The notes under the pieces were generated by a model that was given only the letters and a program-made list of their open reading frames with translations, did no database searches and was not told the DNA's origin. This document shows, piece by piece, positions 23,493-64,000 of a DNA stretch of 64,000 nucleotides. The stretch comes from Gongronella butleri. Its lineage: Eukaryota > Mucoromycota > Mucoromycetes > Mucorales > Cunninghamellaceae. The DNA lies in assembly GCA_025201375.1 (NCBI GenBank), contig JAIWZP010000061.1, positions 91,749 to 155,748 of the forward strand, written 5' to 3'. Made by a program: the position numbers and the translations under genes. Positions within the stretch are counted from its first letter, which is position 1; each line of letters begins with the position of its first letter.

Positions 23493-23494
23493 TA

Positions 23495-24190
23495 CAGAGT
23501 TTCCACTGTTCATATGCGCGCCGTTGAAAAGTTTTTGCACGCAAAGAGGATTTTTTCACCCGCGAATAAAAATGCAAATGCACGCAAACACCTTTCATTG
23601 GCGCGCACCGCATCATCAGTCCACGCAAACTTTACTCTCGATGGGCGCCAATTGAATTTTTAGGGCACGCGAATATTTATTTCGTACAAAAAAAAAAAGG
23701 AAACTATGAGTACAGTAACCAGACTTCGATCTGTCAGCCCAACGCGTTCGACATGTGTGACCCGCCAGCGTTCGATTTGTGTGACCACCGCATTTGACTT
23801 GTGCGACCGCTGAGTTCGACTCGCTTATCCGGCGTTCGACTCGTTTACCCGGCGTTCGACTCGTTTACCCGGCGTTCGACTCGTTTGCCTGGCGTTCGAC
23901 TCGTTTGCCCGGCGTTCGACTCGTTTGCCCGGCGTTCGACTCGTTTACCCGGCGTTCGACTCGTTTGCCTGGCGTTCGACTCACTTGCCCGGCGTTCGAC
24001 TCGTTTGCCTGGCGTTCGACTCGTTTGCCCGGCGTTCGACTCGTTTGCCTGGCGTTCGACTTACCGGATTTCCAGTGTTCATTGGCGCGCCTCACAATTA
24101 TTTTTAGCGCGCAAATAAAAAAATTAGGCGCGCAAAGCAATTTTTGTTTGCACGCAAAAAAAAAAAAAAAAAAAAAAATAAAGACGCCTC
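23495..24190. repeat. Left terminal inverted repeat of the transposon
   Basis: The outer block 23495-23672 pairs with the reverse complement of 28515-28697 (GCGCGCCGTTGAAAAGTTTTTG, TTCACCCGCGAATAAAAA, GGCGCGCACCGCATCATCAG). The inner block 24064-24190 pairs with the reverse complement of about 28240-28365 (CCGGATTTCCAGTGTTCATT, GGCGCGCAAAGCAATTTTTG). Many short GCGCGC-type words occur in both blocks. The inner block ends in a 25-A run. Confidence 0.85.
23813..24062 (+). repeat. 20-bp minisatellite in the left inverted repeat
   Basis: About 12.5 copies of GGCGTTCGACTCGTTTGCCC, period exactly 20 bp, with C/T and A/G changes at fixed positions. It lies between the outer and inner blocks of the left terminal repeat. 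Degenerate leading copies (GCGTTCGATTTGTGTGACCA) extend to about 23745. The right arm has a shorter version. Confidence 0.9.
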
Positions 24191-24271
24191 GAATCGTTTG
24201 TGCTGTGCGCAAAGCAATTTCTTGACACAAACTAGTTTTTTTATTAAAAGTATTGCAAGAAAAAAAGCGAC

Positions 24272-25724
24272 CTAGAGATTGGCTTCCTTTTTGATGCATC
24301 GGTCAAAGAAGGAGACGGAGTGCCGAATCCACCCCTCGCAATCGCTGGGCGTGACGGTGCGCGCCGCTTCCAGAATGCGAGGAGCAAGCGAGTCTTTGTC
24401 GTCCAAAGACGAGCGTCGCACACGAGCCTTGACCTTTGCCCAAAACTCTTCAATTGGGTTCAGGAAAGGGCTGTAGGGCGGCAAGAACAACGGCTTGAAA
24501 CCATGCTTGCGTATAACTGCCGACACGTCTTGACTCTTGTGGATCGAGGCATTGTCCATCACGACGTGTCGGCCTTTGATTCCTTCCTCGGACAAGCATT
24601 TCAGTGCATTGTCGATAAATGCAATGAAATCGGTCGTTCTTGTGCCAATCTTGACCTTCACATTAGAGCCTCCTTTGACTGTCTTCATTGATGCAGTCGG
24701 CTTGCGCAGTGTTAAATTGACCACACCAAGTTCACAGATTGCGCCAAGAATCGTGATATTGACACCCTTGCTGTTTGGAACGGTGACCTTCGGTGTTTCG
24801 CCTTTCCGGGCCCAACCAACGCCACGTCGCAAATGAAGATTAAACCCAGCTTCGTCCACAAACACGCAATTGTTGAAAAAGCTGAAATCTGGCAGGCGAC
24901 TCCATTCCAAAACGATGTCGTGGCGACGCTGGATCGTCAATTCCGAGTTTCTGGCAGCCAGGATTGGTCGCACCCTCTTCAATGTCATAACACAATGGGA
25001 TTTGATGTGATTGTGCAAGGCAGACTTGGAAATTACGAGTGGTGCGAATTTCGCCATAATTGTGTCCCGCGCCTCGGCCAACGTTCGCGTATTGTCTTCA
25101 TCAAAAAACGCAACAAGGAATTCAGTGTGCTCCGGGAAGAGTTTGCGTCGCCCACCGTTGCGATGTCTCAGGGGAACTGGAACTCTCTGTTGGACATCAT
25201 CGTTGTAACGCTTGACGTAGTTTTGCGCAGTGCGCTCCTTGATTCCAACTAGTCTCCCAGCTTCCGCTGCTGTTTTGCCTAAAGTTCACAAAATATAATT
25301 AAAAAAAAGAAAATTGGGATTTTTCTTTTTGCTTGCCTTTGGTGGTGACTAATTCGATCAGCTCTTCGATTTGATGCGGCTTGTATACACGGTATGGACC
25401 ACGCTTTGCAGTAAGTGGATGAATATCTTTGACAGGATGCGGCTTGTCTTCATCCATTGGCGTGGTTGGGCGAATGAATGTACTTTTGTAGTCGCTGAAT
25501 GTCAACAACTGGCCGCCATGAGCACGCAAGAAATCCTCATTGATGATATTGAAGTTGTCGAGGTTGGGTGTGTCGTCAGACTTGGATTCCGCGAGGTCCT
25601 TGTTGTTAAACGCTTCAAATGTGCCTTCAAGAGCGTTGAACTCATATTCCGATTCATCCGACGAATCAGAATCAGGTATCTCCTTTGTCGTTGGACGAAG
25701 TAACCAAGTGTCATCAGATGACAT
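24272..25724 (-). CDS. Tc1/mariner-like (IS630 superfamily) DD34E transposase
   Basis: Cut-and-paste transposase of the surrounding element. Two exons are inferred, 25724-25337 and 25278-24272, giving 464 residues. The 58-nt intron has a GC donor (AAAG|GCAAGC) and AG acceptor. The N-terminal 100 residues are acidic with a Ser/Asp run. A helix-turn-helix follows (IEELIELVTTKGKTAAEAGR, then LVGIKERTAQNYVKRY). The catalytic core has VFVDEAGFN (first D), VVMDNASIH (second D) and LPPYSPFLNPIEEFWAKVK. The spacing from the second D to the first E of PIEE is 34 residues. All three catalytic residues are present, so the enzyme is probably functional. It is oriented from the element interior to the left end. 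Confidence 0.9.
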
Positions 25725-25742
25725 TGTGCGGTAAAAATGATA

Positions 25743-25743
<1 letters not shown>

Positions 25744-25805
<62 letters not shown>
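25744..25805 (+). repeat. 62-bp homopolymer A run upstream of the transposase
   Basis: An uninterrupted A tract (T tract on the transposase strand) begins 20 bp before the transposase ATG and separates it from the 21-bp array. It could be part of the transposase promoter or a replication-slippage product. Its exact length may be affected by sequencing. Confidence 0.8.
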
Positions 25806-25807
<2 letters not shown>

Positions 25808-25836
25808 CGCGTGGTAAAAATGATCAATATCATCCC

Positions 25837-26466
25837 AACTCATTCCAATGCCATTTCAGGGCGTTCCACTGCCATCCCAACTCGTTCCACTGCCATCCAA
25901 CTCGTTCCACTGCCATTTCAGGGCGTTCCACTGCCATCCAACTCGTTCCACTGCCATTTCAGGGCGTTCCACTGCCATTTCAGGGCGTTCCACTGCCATT
26001 TCAGAGCGTTCCACTGCCATCCCAACTCGTTCCACTGCCATCCCAACTCGTTCCACTGCCATCCCAACTCGTTCCACTGCCATTCCAACTCGTTCCACTG
26101 CCATTCCAACTTGTTCCACTGCCATCCCAACTCGTTCCACTGCCATCCCAACTCGTTCCACTGCCATCCCAACTCGTTCCACTGCCATTCCAACTCGTTC
26201 CACTGCCATTCCAACTTGTTCCACTGCCATCCCAACTCGTTCCACTGCCATTCCAACTTGTTCCACTGCCATCCCAACTCGTTCCACTGCCATCCCAACT
26301 CGTTCCACTGCCATTCCAACTTGTTCCACTGCCATCCCAACTCGTTCCACTGCCATCCCAACTCGTTCCACTGCCATTCCAACTCGTTCCACTGCCATCC
26401 CAGCTCGTTCCACTGCCATCCCAATTCGTCCCACTACCATCTCAGCTCGTTCCAATGCCATTTCAG
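25837..26466 (+). repeat. 21-bp tandem array inside the transposon
   Basis: About 30 copies of TTCCACTGCCATCCCAACTCG, with variants CATTTCAGGGCG (first units) and CATTCCAACTTG. Because 21 is divisible by three, long stop-free frames appear on both strands (7-residue repeats); these are by-products and not genes. A few early units are one base short. Confidence 0.9.
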
Positions 26467-26559
26467 GGAGTCACAGCGTTCATCAAGCGCAATCCATGAT
26501 TCTGGTGGCTAACTTCACCCCTCAAATTTCCGCTCAATTCACTCCCCAGGTGCATCTCA

Positions 26560-27020
26560 CGCTTCGTGCGGCTCATTCTGCCCCTCAATCGCAACTTGTG
26601 CTCCGAGCGGCTCGTTTCTGCCCCTCAATCGCAACTTGTGCTTCAAGCGACTCATTTTGCCCCTCAATCGCAACTTGTGCTCCGAGCGGCTCATTCTGCC
26701 CCTCAATCGCAACTTGTGCTTCAAGCGACTCATTCTGCCCCTCAATCGCAACTTGTGCTCCGAGCGGCTCATTCTGCCCCTCAATCGCAACTTGTGCTTC
26801 AAGCGACTCATTCTGCCCCTCAATCGCAACTTGTGCTCCGAGCGGCTCATTTTGCCCCTCAATCGCAACTTGTGCTTCAAGCGACTCATTCTGCTCCTCA
26901 ATCGCAACTTGTGCTTCAAGCGACTCATTTTACCCCTCAATCGCAACTTGTGCTTCAAGCGACTCATTTTACCCCTCAATCGCAACTTGTGCTTCAAGCG
27001 ACTCATTTTGCCCCTCAATT
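26560..27020 (+). repeat. 39-bp tandem array with an alternating higher-order pattern
   Basis: About 12 copies of a 39-bp unit, GCCCCTCAATCGCAACTTGT then GC(T/C)(T/C)C(A/G)AGCG(A/G)CTCATTCT. Two variants (CTCCGAGCGGC and CTTCAAGCGAC) alternate strictly through the middle, giving a 78-bp higher-order unit, and the last four units are all of the second type. Stop-free frames in the array follow from 39 being divisible by three. Confidence 0.9.
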
Positions 27021-27241
27021 GCAGGTCACTCGGCGAACATGCCGCTCCAATTTTGAAGCACCTTCAACTTTTTCCGTGGTTGTCATCTGATGGCACGGTG
27101 ACACCTGACACTTTTTTTTTTTTTTTTTTTTTGCGCTTTTAGCCGCTTTGCAGCGAGTGATGACTCCTAATTTGTTGCAAAGCAAGAAATAAATTACTCT
27201 GCTCTAATCATTGATTTGATCTTCCTGATTACTGCCAAAAA

Positions 27242-27748
27242 ATGACCAAATACACTCAGGAATTCATAAAAGAATTTGTCGCAGCGGCAACAGCACCTTC
27301 CGCCAAGTCAATTACGGCTGTTGCCAAGGAATTCGGCATTCCTAAGTCTTCTGCTACACGCATCGTCAGGACGGCGACACAGGGCGAGTCGCGTGAAGGT
27401 AAATTTATATCATTTTGCATTTGTATGATCACCCTAACAATGGTTTCAGGCGAAAAAACGACAAAAACAAGAACGACAAAAGCAGCTACACAAAGGAATT
27501 GCGGCGCAGTTGCTGTTGCAAGCGACATTCAGCTGCTGGAGGCAGCTCAGAAACCTTGCACAGCCAATGTTGACGTGAATTCACTCGCGCATCGATTGTC
27601 CTCGCTTCAAATTGCGCGTAAAAAGAATGAGCTTGTAATCCGAGCTCAGAAAGACCGCGAGTTCCGACGCGCACACGTAACTCCCTATGCATTCGCGAAA
27701 TCATTGTCAAAGCGCTATCAGGTACTGCAAATCTCGGTAGTTTTTTAA
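27242..27748 (+). CDS. Transposon accessory helix-turn-helix protein, part 1
   Basis: The ATG at 27242 follows an A-rich leader. One intron is inferred (27399-27449; GGTAAAT...TTTCAG), which removes an in-frame run through and joins GESRE to GEKTTKTRTTK. The N-terminus is a helix-turn-helix (SITAVAKEFGIPKSSATRIV) preceded by a helix. The rest is basic, with HRLSSLQIARKKNELVIRAQ. Read through, the frame stops at 27748. A donor CAG|GTACTG at 27722 could instead join it in frame to 27873, giving one 256-residue protein with two related HTH units. I cannot decide between the two models. Confidence 0.55.
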   Translation: MTKYTQEFIKEFVAAATAPSAKSITAVAKEFGIPKSSATRIVRTATQGESREGKFISFCICMITLTMVSGEKTTKTRTTKAATQRNCGAVAVASDIQLLEAAQKPCTANVDVNSLAHRLSSLQIARKKNELVIRAQKDREFRRAHVTPYAFAKSLSKRYQVLQISVVF

Positions 27749-27795
27749 GCATTTGTTTATTTTTTCGTTGATAAAGAACGCCTTTGGCGTATTTG

Positions 27796-27803
27796 TATAA
27801 ATA
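27796..27803 (+). promoter_or_regulatory. TATA box candidate for the second HTH gene
   Basis: TATAAATA lies 58 bp before the ATG at 27861. Its spacing supports a separate transcription unit for the second HTH frame, against the joined-exon model. Confidence 0.4.
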
Positions 27804-27860
27804 TGTTGAGGGCGTGAAACAGCCCGACGTTTAACTTCTTTGAACAAAACTGAATGAACA

Positions 27861-28211
27861 ATGTCATCCCAGCAACCTTTGCGAAACATTGAGGAACTGC
27901 TCAGGAACGAAGATCTTCCGGCTCCTGAAGAGCAACTGCTGGATGCCGTCATTCCCACAGTTGTCAGTACGGCCTACGAAGATCGGCCACAAACCAGGAG
28001 GCGAGGGCTGAGTTTGTCCAAGCAATTCGCCATCTGGGAGGCTGTGTACGTCAACGGGACCACGTACGAGCAATTGGCCCAGAAGATTGACGTTCCAAAA
28101 ACGACATGCTATCGATATGCCCGCAAGTTTGATTGCAACCCACCGATTGAGGCAATTTCGATGTACAGGCCGGAATTGCTGTCAACTCTGATCCTAAGAA
28201 ACACCCAATAA
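27861..28211 (+). CDS. Transposon accessory helix-turn-helix protein, part 2
   Basis: This 116-residue frame ends just before the right inverted repeat. After an acidic start (NIEELLRNEDLPAPEEQ) it has a helix-turn-helix, YEQLAQKIDVPKTTCYRYAR. This is clearly similar to the HTH of the preceding frame (VAKEFGIPKSSATRIVR), so the two look like a duplication. It is either a separate small DNA-binding protein (with its own TATA-like box) or the last exon of the preceding gene, since CCCAG|CAACCT at 27872 is a good acceptor in the same phase. It may bind the repeat arrays or terminal repeats, which is an inference. Confidence 0.55.
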   Translation: MSSQQPLRNIEELLRNEDLPAPEEQLLDAVIPTVVSTAYEDRPQTRRRGLSLSKQFAIWEAVYVNGTTYEQLAQKIDVPKTTCYRYARKFDCNPPIEAISMYRPELLSTLILRNTQ

Positions 28212-28239
28212 ACTAGGGCGCGCCCCTGCAACCTTTTTT

Positions 28240-28697
28240 AGAGGCGTCCTTTTTTTTTTTTTTTTTTTGCGTGCAAACAAAAATTGCTTTGCGCGCCTAA
28301 TTTTTTTATTTGCGCGCCAAAAATAATTGTGAGGCGCGCCAATGAACACTGGAAATCCGGTAGACTCACTTTGTACCGCGTTCGACTCTTTTGCCCGGCA
28401 TTTGACTCGTTTGCCTGGCGTTCGACTCACTTTGTACCGCGTTCGACTCGCTTGCCCGGCGTTCGACTCACTTTGTATCGCGTTTGACTCGTGTGACCAC
28501 CACAATAAAAAAAAAAGAATTCGCGTGCCCTGGAAATTAAATTAGCGCTCATCGAGAGTAGAATTTGCGTGGACTGATGATGCGGTGCGCGCCAATGAAA
28601 GGTATTGGCGTGCGTTTCTTTTTTATTCGCGGGTGAAGAAATCACCTTTGCGTGCAAAAACTTTTCAACGGCGCGCAAATGAACAGTGGAAACTCTG
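28240..28697. repeat. Right terminal inverted repeat of the transposon
   Basis: The inner block (28240-28365) and outer block (28515-28697) are reverse complements of the left-end blocks. Between them lie about five degenerate 20-bp units (GCGTTCGACTCGCTTGCCCG and TTTGTACCGC variants). On the + strand these units read in the same direction as the left minisatellite, so they are direct while their flanks are inverted. Confidence 0.85.
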
Positions 28698-28975
28698 TAC
28701 TGTACTGTACAGTACGTATCATAACATGGTACTGTTCGTATTTGTGATTTTTTCGGATTTTACAAGCAAATGTCTTGTGTAAACCATCCATTTTTTAAGT
28801 TTAACTGCTGATATGATAGCTCCTATCGGTAAAACCTACAGTAACACACACGGACGTCCGGGACACGTGGGACGTGGCTCCAACTGTACTACTGTAGAAT
28901 CACTGATGAATGCTTGCAGCAACACGATACACTACTGTATACAAAAAAAACGTACACAGTACCTTTTAAACACCA

Positions 28976-63092: not shown

Positions 63093-64000
63093 CTAAGCAC
63101 GGCTGTTTTGCTTGTGCTTTTTGGATAAATCACGATGGTATGCTGTAATCATGGATTTGTTCTTATCAAAGTTGCCTGCAGGGAGCCAAAGATTCTCTTC
63201 AGGGCCGTACCCTTCAAATGATACAAAATATTCATAGCCATCTTTGTGATTTCCGCGATGCTTATGGATTTTCTCCACAACATAGGATTTTTCGTGCCTA
63301 ACGTCGCTTGACAAGGCGGGATGATCATCAGAAACATGTTTTAGCTGTTCTGGAGGGAAGTGACGCGGTAAACGTTGATTCAAATGGAAGTCCTCTAAGA
63401 CATAGGATCCACCTTTGGTCCGTTCCACAACGCGAAATGGACCTTGATATTTTGGTTCCAATTTATGCGTTTTCAATGGATTCAACGTAGCCACTAGTGT
63501 GCCAATTTCGAATTGTACCATGCGCTTTTTCGAATTGAAGCGATCCTGAGTTGCCTGGCGCAGCTCACGCTGGCGTGCAGCAATTGCAGGGCGTACAACT
63601 TCCGTGATCACACGATGTCGCTCCTTTAGTTTTTTTCTGTCATATGCATAGACTGGCACATTGGATTCAATGGTGTCCTTGTGCTTGGCGTTGTAGTCAA
63701 TCAAGCCATTTGCACGTCTTGCAAAGAAAAGGTCAAAAGGTGCGCTGTTTGTCAAGCTGTGGGGCTGTAAATTATAAAAATATGCGACATTGTCTACATA
63801 TTCGTCCCAATCCTGGAGTCGAGAGTCAACAAGTTTGGCTAACATCCGCGTTGTAGTCTGTACGGAACGCTCAGCGACGCCGTTGGCTCGTGGATGATAC
63901 GCGCTGATGAGTCTCTTCTCCACAGAGGCGCTAGAGCACATCAGTTCAACTAGGTCATTGACAAATTCACGACCGTTGTCTGACATCAAGGCTTTTGGAA
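63093..64000 (-). mobile_element. Ty3/gypsy chromovirus integrase with chromodomain (partial)
   Basis: C-terminal part of a retrotransposon polyprotein, reading into the window from the right edge; the 5' part is outside. It contains the end of the integrase core (MSDNGREFVNDLVELM with its catalytic Asp, SAYHPRANGVAERSVQTTTR with the following Glu), then a GPFRVVERTKGGSYVLED strand-rich domain. The chromodomain comes last (EKSYVVEKIHKHRGNHKDGY, EYFVSFEGYGPEENLWLP), which targets such elements to modified histones. The frame has no stop in the visible 302 codons, so the copy may be recent. Confidence 0.9.

Follow-up and report, generated by a model that had tools for sequence, protein, structure and literature searches.

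The question raised by positions 23495..28697 of a 64-kb stretch of the genome of Gongronella butleri, a soil fungus of the Mucorales, is whether the transposase gene, the minisatellites, and the helix-turn-helix (HTH) genes found there between TA-flanked ends belong to one transposon. The initial annotation of this stretch (the window, which here always means its full 64 kb) had described a compound element of the Tc1/mariner type whose parts all move together. The analysis of the genome assembly (33.0 Mb, 110 contigs) gives a different answer: the block is a nest, in which an inner transposon, named I, has been inserted at a TA inside a minisatellite (sat20) of a gene-less outer element, named O. 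The insertion of I has also been shown to be biased toward arrays of the GACTCG/CGACTC type, and the layout of I recurs in coding copies of the O family, which is a sister family. Throughout the text, coordinates without prefix are positions in the window, C-numbers denote contigs of the genome, and L-numbers denote fetched loci.

Two nested transposons

The outer ends of the block read CAGAGTTTCCACTGTTCAT; their positions are exactly 23495 and 28697, and both are adjoined by TA, as had been claimed, and the terminal regions are indeed made of blocks, in the form of inverted arms of 85 bp (93%), 114 bp (86%), and 113 bp (99%). The near-identity that the initial annotation ascribed to the outer repeats has not been sustained, because these are 86–93% alike and the 99% pair (113 bp with the target TA included) belongs to element I. 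The parts of the nest are the following:

23495..28697, no strand assigned, outer element O, gene-less, with TA duplications at 23493-23494 and 28698-28699; one of the 18 complete O copies
23495..23682, plus strand, left terminal inverted repeat (TIR) of O, from inverted-arm comparison and genome matches
28511..28697, minus strand, right TIR of O, matching the left repeat at 86–93%
23739..24061, plus strand, left part of sat20, the minisatellite of O, with unit GTTCGACTCGTTTGCCCGGC and 12 copies by tandem-repeat analysis
28378..28491, plus strand, right part of sat20, separated from the left part by element I
24064..28360, no strand assigned, inner transposon I, 4297 bp, with TA duplications at 24062-24063 and 28361-28362
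24064..24174, plus strand, left TIR of I, starting with CCGGATTTCCAGTGTTCAT, from inverted arms and end-motif search
28250..28360, minus strand, right TIR of I, 99% identical to the left one

Removal of I together with one TA copy leaves an O element of 904 bp, a size also found in other short O copies. The outer end motif occurs exactly 44 times in the genome and the inner one 22 times, against zero occurrences for either motif when it is reversed and searched in the same assembly as a control; chance is therefore excluded by the recurrence of the ends. The 44 outer ends fall into 26 loci, namely 18 complete O copies (682–7561 bp), and eight copies with one exact end, which is adjoined by TA in seven cases and by TT in L022. 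The search for other copies bounded by these ends, proposed by the initial annotation, has thus recovered complete copies that are all flanked by TA on both sides (18/18), but 13 of the 18 are without the inner parts. Since I is also found outside O, the idea of a unit whose parts all travel together had to be abandoned. A single compound element would leave a number of full copies that agree in their internal parts and in their junctions, and no such set has been found.

Ten copies of I retain both exact ends, and every one of them is flanked by TA. Eight lie within six O copies (two of these received two insertions each; L017, also among the six, is one-ended), and the other two are at C18:475396 and C33:36602, with no O arms within the fetched 9.9 kb around each. 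An older third copy outside O occupies C33:30921-38332. Lone ends of I are present at C66:105562 and C33:38314, the latter being the right end of this older copy. Among the eight nested copies, no pair has both junction flanks in common over 90 bp, so they look like separate events; some single junction flanks do match over this length (96–97%). If conversion is allowed for among near-identical copies with a common site type, six nested events are still counted as independent. When the flanks are joined with one TA, an uninterrupted array sequence known from other loci is restored in 5 of the 10 I copies: the restored 42 bp are present at 9, 1, 1, 4, and 7 loci for L029 (6147), L028, L017 (3102), L021, and L030, respectively. 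The joined flanks of the remaining five have no match in the fetched loci, even at 18 bp. A chance nest of separate repeats, which the initial annotation had named as the outcome that would undo its proposal, does not describe the block either: the transposase, the two minisatellites sat21 and sat39, and the two HTH genes HTH1 and HTH2 form one transposon, and the nesting is non-random.

Target choice of the inner element

The non-random nesting can be expressed in numbers. Within their arrays, the 18 complete O copies contain 188 TA sites, and the array of L017 (on C32) contains 10 more, giving 198, a count that leaves out the other one-ended O copies; the genome holds about 1.03 million TA sites, a total extrapolated from the TA frequency in the window. 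With these figures, the presence of 8 of 10 I insertions in O arrays has a binomial P of about 8e-29, and P is about 1e-21 when the data are cut to six of eight events. The arrays that were hit are all of the sat20 type, to which 120 of the 198 TA sites belong, and the 78 sites of other types have received no hit; (120/198)^8 is 0.018. Insertions are therefore enriched in one class of sequence, as array targeting requires.

A sequence common to the targets has been also identified. GACTCG lies within 100 bp of all ten I sites and of 4.7% of the 1,500 TA sites sampled in the window; this motif was derived from the array sites, and therefore the fair test is given by the two non-O sites, on C18 and C33. 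At C18:475396, there are 11 GACTCG in 198 bp of an unrelated sequence. When the genome is scanned for groups of three GACTCG that fall on one strand in a span of 78 bp, 10 O elements and, as grouped here, 15 other clusters are obtained, and the C18 insertion falls in one of these 15 non-O clusters of a 33-Mb genome. The C33 site, which is less favorable, is discussed below together with the other points of the same kind.

Genes and arrays of the inner element

Typical Tc1/mariner elements measure 1.3–2.4 kb and have one gene, features that are usual without being required. Element I belongs to this superfamily by its DDE_3 transposase with DD34E, its TA duplication, and its TIRs, and it lies outside the typical range with 4297 bp and three genes. 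On these contents the initial annotation was accurate, since a DD34E transposase, internal minisatellites, and genes of HTH type on the opposite strand, both open, are all present:

25337..25724, minus strand, exon 1 of the transposase (modelled), including part of the N-terminal HTH
25279-25336, minus strand, GC-AG intron of the transposase (model only)
24272..25278, minus strand, exon 2 of the transposase, DDE_3 with DD34E (Pfam DDE_3 E 4.1e-31)
25831..26461, plus strand, sat21, unit of 21 bp, 30 copies by tandem-repeat analysis; also in the older C33 copy
26561..27023, plus strand, sat39, unit of 39 bp, 12 copies by tandem-repeat analysis, with CGACTCA seven times
27242..27800, plus strand, HTH1, 150 amino acids, modelled exons 27242-27398, 27450-27721, and 27777-27800
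27861..28211, plus strand, HTH2, 116 amino acids, open reading frame

The transposase intron and the exons of HTH1 are predicted gene models. With its intron modelled, the transposase has 464 amino acids, and its residues D271, D371, and E406, the last two separated by 34 residues, are invariant across 13 sequences. Its relatives amount to 601 database hits, the closest of which is 55% identical; among the 120 listed of the 601, the closest named ones reach about 36–46%, the nearest being DDE_3 transposases of Mucor, Rhizopus, Circinella, and Parasitella. A run of A of 61 bp (25745-25805) is located just upstream of the gene, between its start and sat21. In the comparison of exon 2 between the window copy and the older C33 copy, the ratio of nonsynonymous to synonymous substitution rates (dN/dS) is 0.11 (0.05–0.21).

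The copies of I differ in their content. Two coding copies have both ends, that of the window (4297 bp) and L029 (4338 bp), which differ by three mismatches and three gaps. The other eight are gene-less, measure 1474–1654 bp, and keep TIR, sat39, sat21, and sat39. The older C33 copy, which is not in O, encodes a transposase protein about 96% identical and contains sat21 (8.7 copies), HTH1, and a frameshifted HTH2.

Both HTH proteins resemble the N-terminal HTH of the transposase, as shown by hhalign comparisons (HTH1, E 6.6e-6, probability 85%; HTH2, E 1.1e-4, probability 57%), and the simplest origin for them would be a duplication of this domain. Residues 52–90 of HTH2 are modelled as a helical HTH with a predicted local distance difference test score (pLDDT) of about 93, and residues 1–46 are mostly below 50. 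The model of the HTH1 family was made on its relative P0126 and is confident in the first 50 residues only (pLDDT 82–90; whole-model mean 51.8). Among the scanned proteins (HTH1, HTH2, and relatives), none has a Pfam match to a tyrosine recombinase or to a zinc-finger/kinase protein. Outside the G. butleri genome, HTH2 has the relatives P0123 and P0125 and HTH1 has P0126, on contigs of about 1 kb, and so neither protein is private to this genome. None of the relatives of HTH1 or HTH2 is named as belonging to Mucor, Rhizopus, Circinella, or Parasitella in a protein-database search that requires common words of five residues.

As for the arrays, AACTCG, present 17 times in sat21, and the CGACTCA of sat39 have a RACTCR core in common. 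An array is kept in all 16 complete gene-less O copies and in all eight gene-less I copies, although these are not independent and represent about three structural types. In the six O copies of 2.1–2.8 kb, the array has in every case a short remnant of the 3' end of HTH2 on one side and of the transposase gene on the other, which means that genes have been lost on either side of an array that was kept. This retention of arrays by gene-less copies points to a role in cis for the array in movement. The sequences sat21 and sat39 contain one and two TA dinucleotides, respectively; a TA shortage acting as a self-protection device was considered and rejected, because two short TA-free units are not rare enough.

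The outer element and its coding copies

The O copy of the window is non-autonomous, of the kind of the miniature inverted-repeat transposable elements: it has TIRs and a TA duplication, no gene of its own, and ends identical to those of the coding copies L012 and L013. Its left arm (23497-23682) has at least 40 matches in the genome (40 of 53 candidates scored). The left arm of the copy L009 is 99.5% identical to the right arm of the window copy, and its right arm is 96.3% identical to the left arm of the latter; the same difference between arms recurs in both copies, and therefore it is old and not a product of decay after insertion. A search of the genome with the joined flanks of L009 found no clean empty site, one flank being the end of another repeat family. 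This flank (C2:236324-236454) has a repeated end of about 80 bp that is present in at least 39 other places, often paired about 1 kb apart, and resembles the TIR of a further family of short transposable elements. Regarding its own sites, O favors CWGTA/TACWG in 9 of 18 insertions, vs. 7.7% of the TA sites of the window (144/1878; binomial P 2e-6), for a motif picked after the insertion sites had been inspected. Both families, O and I, seem to have target preferences.

Coding copies of O are found in L012 (6587 bp), L013 (7561 bp), and L011, the latter interrupted by a contig end. The first two have in common with I the order and orientation of the genes, that is, a transposase, an array in between (19–20-bp unit), a homologue of HTH1, and a homologue of HTH2. 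Their transposases are 61–75% identical to that of I, depending on the segment (66% over exon 2 in L012, where the second-exon frame of 347 amino acids is open), and the HTH2 homologues match at 31–39% over about 62 residues. In the comparison between L012 and L013, dN/dS is 0.42 (0.28–0.62) for HTH1, 0.47 (0.29–0.68) for HTH2, and 0.36 (0.09–1.23) for the second exon of the transposase. The first part of HTH1 is tandemly repeated in these copies (L012:4856-5666 and L013:5685-6465), with a period of 302–315 bp and about 2.5 copies. They also contain a second transposase-like gene, at L012:1458-2188 and L013:1254-2513 (-), which is 42–44% identical to the transposase of I. In it the second catalytic Asp has been replaced by Asn (VMNNTPIQK), the frame is open over 420 amino acids in L013 and has stops in L012, and dN/dS is 0.56 (0.35–0.86); this gene may encode a regulator that is catalytically dead, or it may be a copy in decay.

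A third family of related transposases, with matches of 57–58%, is present on C5, C6, C15, C54, C86, and C104; its copies in L047–L049 are 99.8–99.9% alike where they overlap, and those on C5 and C15 are near contig ends. When the stretches L047–L049 were used as a control, HTH1 and HTH2 gave no match at E < 0.01, with two of the three stretches stopping at a contig end. Elsewhere in the window, an open frame at 63093-63986 (minus strand) resembles, as judged by eye, the integrase end of a Ty3-type element with a chromodomain.

How might the inner element find its targets?

The reading considered probable is that I nests in O because a protein encoded by the element (HTH1, HTH2, or the HTH of the transposase) binds the arrays and steers insertion. 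The arrays would be binding platforms for this DNA-binding protein, which would gather on the RACTCR-type array of its own element and, once loaded, would bring the transposition complex of I to arrays elsewhere whose core is similar; elements of the sister family would serve as landing pads, and nests would result. A contact between the element protein and the array is presumed in all these steps. A broader proposal is put forward tentatively, as possible and clearly short of probable: a Tc1/mariner lineage of the Mucorales may have captured or duplicated its DNA-binding domain, which would now exist as two HTH proteins that stand alone, with arrays that would act both as loading platforms and as addresses, and sister families would parasitise each other's arrays into nested blocks.

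Several observations count against the reading considered probable. Among the targets, the site at C33:36602 has a single GACTCG, the twice-hit O array at C32 (L017) is below the limit of three GACTCG used in the genome scan (4 and 2 GACTCG are near its sites), and no GACTCG is present in the flank of the one-ended copy of I at C66. The similarity between sat21 and sat20 does not reach significance (26 of 200 shuffles), that between sat39 and sat20 is suggestive (1 of 200 shuffles, among nine comparisons made), and apart from the insertion nested within it, the older C33 copy has no sat39 array detected by TRF. In the case of the HTH proteins, the relatives in the protein database are very few (five hits for HTH2 and three for HTH1, own genome included), no PDB entry matched HTH2 at E <= 0.001 in the Foldseek fold search, and the Pfam HTH matches in HTH1 and HTH2 are weak, all of them below the cut-off. 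Some of the dN/dS values belong here as well: dN/dS of HTH1 and HTH2 in the I family is 0.63–0.91 with wide intervals, that of the C-terminal part of the frame-shifted C33 HTH2 is 4.3 on one synonymous change, that of the first exon of the transposase in the comparison of L012 with L013 is 0.67 with an interval that spans 1 (0.40–1.22), and the main transposase match of L013 falls in two frames.

Other explanations have to be weighed on the same evidence. The outer ends of the block are intact and flanked by TA, and in principle an O transposase could mobilise the whole of it; nevertheless, a compound 5.2-kb transposon moving as a unit is already refuted as the origin by the O copies without I, by the I copies outside O, and by the lack of any pair with both flanks in common over 90 bp, and hardly any credence is left for it. 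Another view accepts the nest and explains the clustering by I having been carried along when O arrays recombined or underwent gene conversion with one another. At the site type TTTG-TA-CCGCG, three of four nested copies are near-identical (1654 bp), which is in line with this view, as are the single flanks that match over 90 bp. However, four forms of I (the 4.3-kb coding form and those of 1654, 1538, and 1474 bp) each occur in O arrays, no nested pair shares both flanks, six of eight events remain when each form is counted once per site type, and the C18 cluster outside O has also been hit, all of which makes recombination unlikely as the cause. Slightly less probable again is survivorship, by which arrays of gene-less elements would be harmless and insertions elsewhere would have been lost. 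The O arrays are non-coding, and fragments of I at C66, C16, C43, and C23 suggest that insertions elsewhere did occur, but of the roughly 1.03 million TA sites of the genome, the counted arrays contain about 198. The non-coding DNA outside them is much more extensive, and therefore harmlessness alone should not yield the enrichment.

For the targeting step, the main rival is the transposase HTH alone, with HTH1 and HTH2 otherwise employed, for example, in repression or in the control of expression from the array. The arrays separate divergent genes, in the manner of a control region used by both, and the resemblance of HTH1 and HTH2 to the transposase HTH suits this explanation as well. On the other hand, gene-less copies need no expression and yet they keep their arrays, which points to a role in cis in movement and counts against this explanation; this alternative is regarded as somewhat doubtful, though a good deal less so than recombination or survivorship. 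Steering by an array-bound protein of the element, be it HTH1, HTH2, or the transposase, is the preferred reading.

Comparison with known systems

Tc1/mariner transposons are usually regarded as single-gene elements with little choice of target beyond TA. A combination of accessory DNA-binding genes, retained minisatellites, and array homing would offer a testable system in which a cut-and-paste transposon gains target choice, and would show how minisatellites spread and persist as working parts of transposons. No such layout has been found in the open-access PMC literature, as covered by titles and the beginnings of abstracts, with subscription journals and Repbase outside this scope.

Some of the features have been reported separately in other organisms. 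For example, Sardine (about 6.7 kb) and Thon are Tc1/mariner elements of Paramecium with TIRs of 425 and about 700 bp; they carry a DDE transposase and further open reading frames, namely a tyrosine recombinase and hypothetical proteins, and one Sardine copy is interrupted by a Thon, a single case that lies inside a gene (PMC3464196). These elements are similar to I and O in their large size, long TIRs, additional open reading frames, and nesting between sister families, but they differ from I by the tyrosine recombinase frames, and the excerpted description mentions no minisatellite (PMC3464196). Another example is TBE of Oxytricha, a Tc1/mariner element with three open reading frames, two of which are accessory, a 22-kD protein described as unknown and a 57-kD zinc-finger/kinase protein; as in I, a transposase is accompanied by two accessory proteins, although those of TBE are not, in the part of the account at hand, small HTH proteins (PMC4724952).

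Internal tandem repeats are known from the foldback elements Tetris and Galileo of Drosophila, and those of Galileo have been said to hold extra transposase sites (PMC4079207). Unlike I, Galileo belongs to the P superfamily, complete Tetris copies are without conserved open reading frames, the repeats are placed within the TIRs, and the excerpts of that source make no mention of an HTH accessory gene (PMC4079207). A further parallel is Pokey, a piggyBac element of Daphnia whose tandem repeats are related to its preferred locus in the ribosomal DNA (rDNA), with gene-less derivatives that share the site (PMC3849761). Pokey differs from I in its superfamily, its TTAA target, and its rDNA niche, and its gene-less mPok copies are described as having no rDNA repeats, whereas the gene-less copies of I and O keep their arrays (PMC3849761). 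As described in these partial accounts, none of the compared systems singly combines HTH accessory genes, array retention by gene-less copies, and homing to arrays. Element I is thus a Tc1/mariner transposon by superfamily, and its layout and target habit mark it as a new form.

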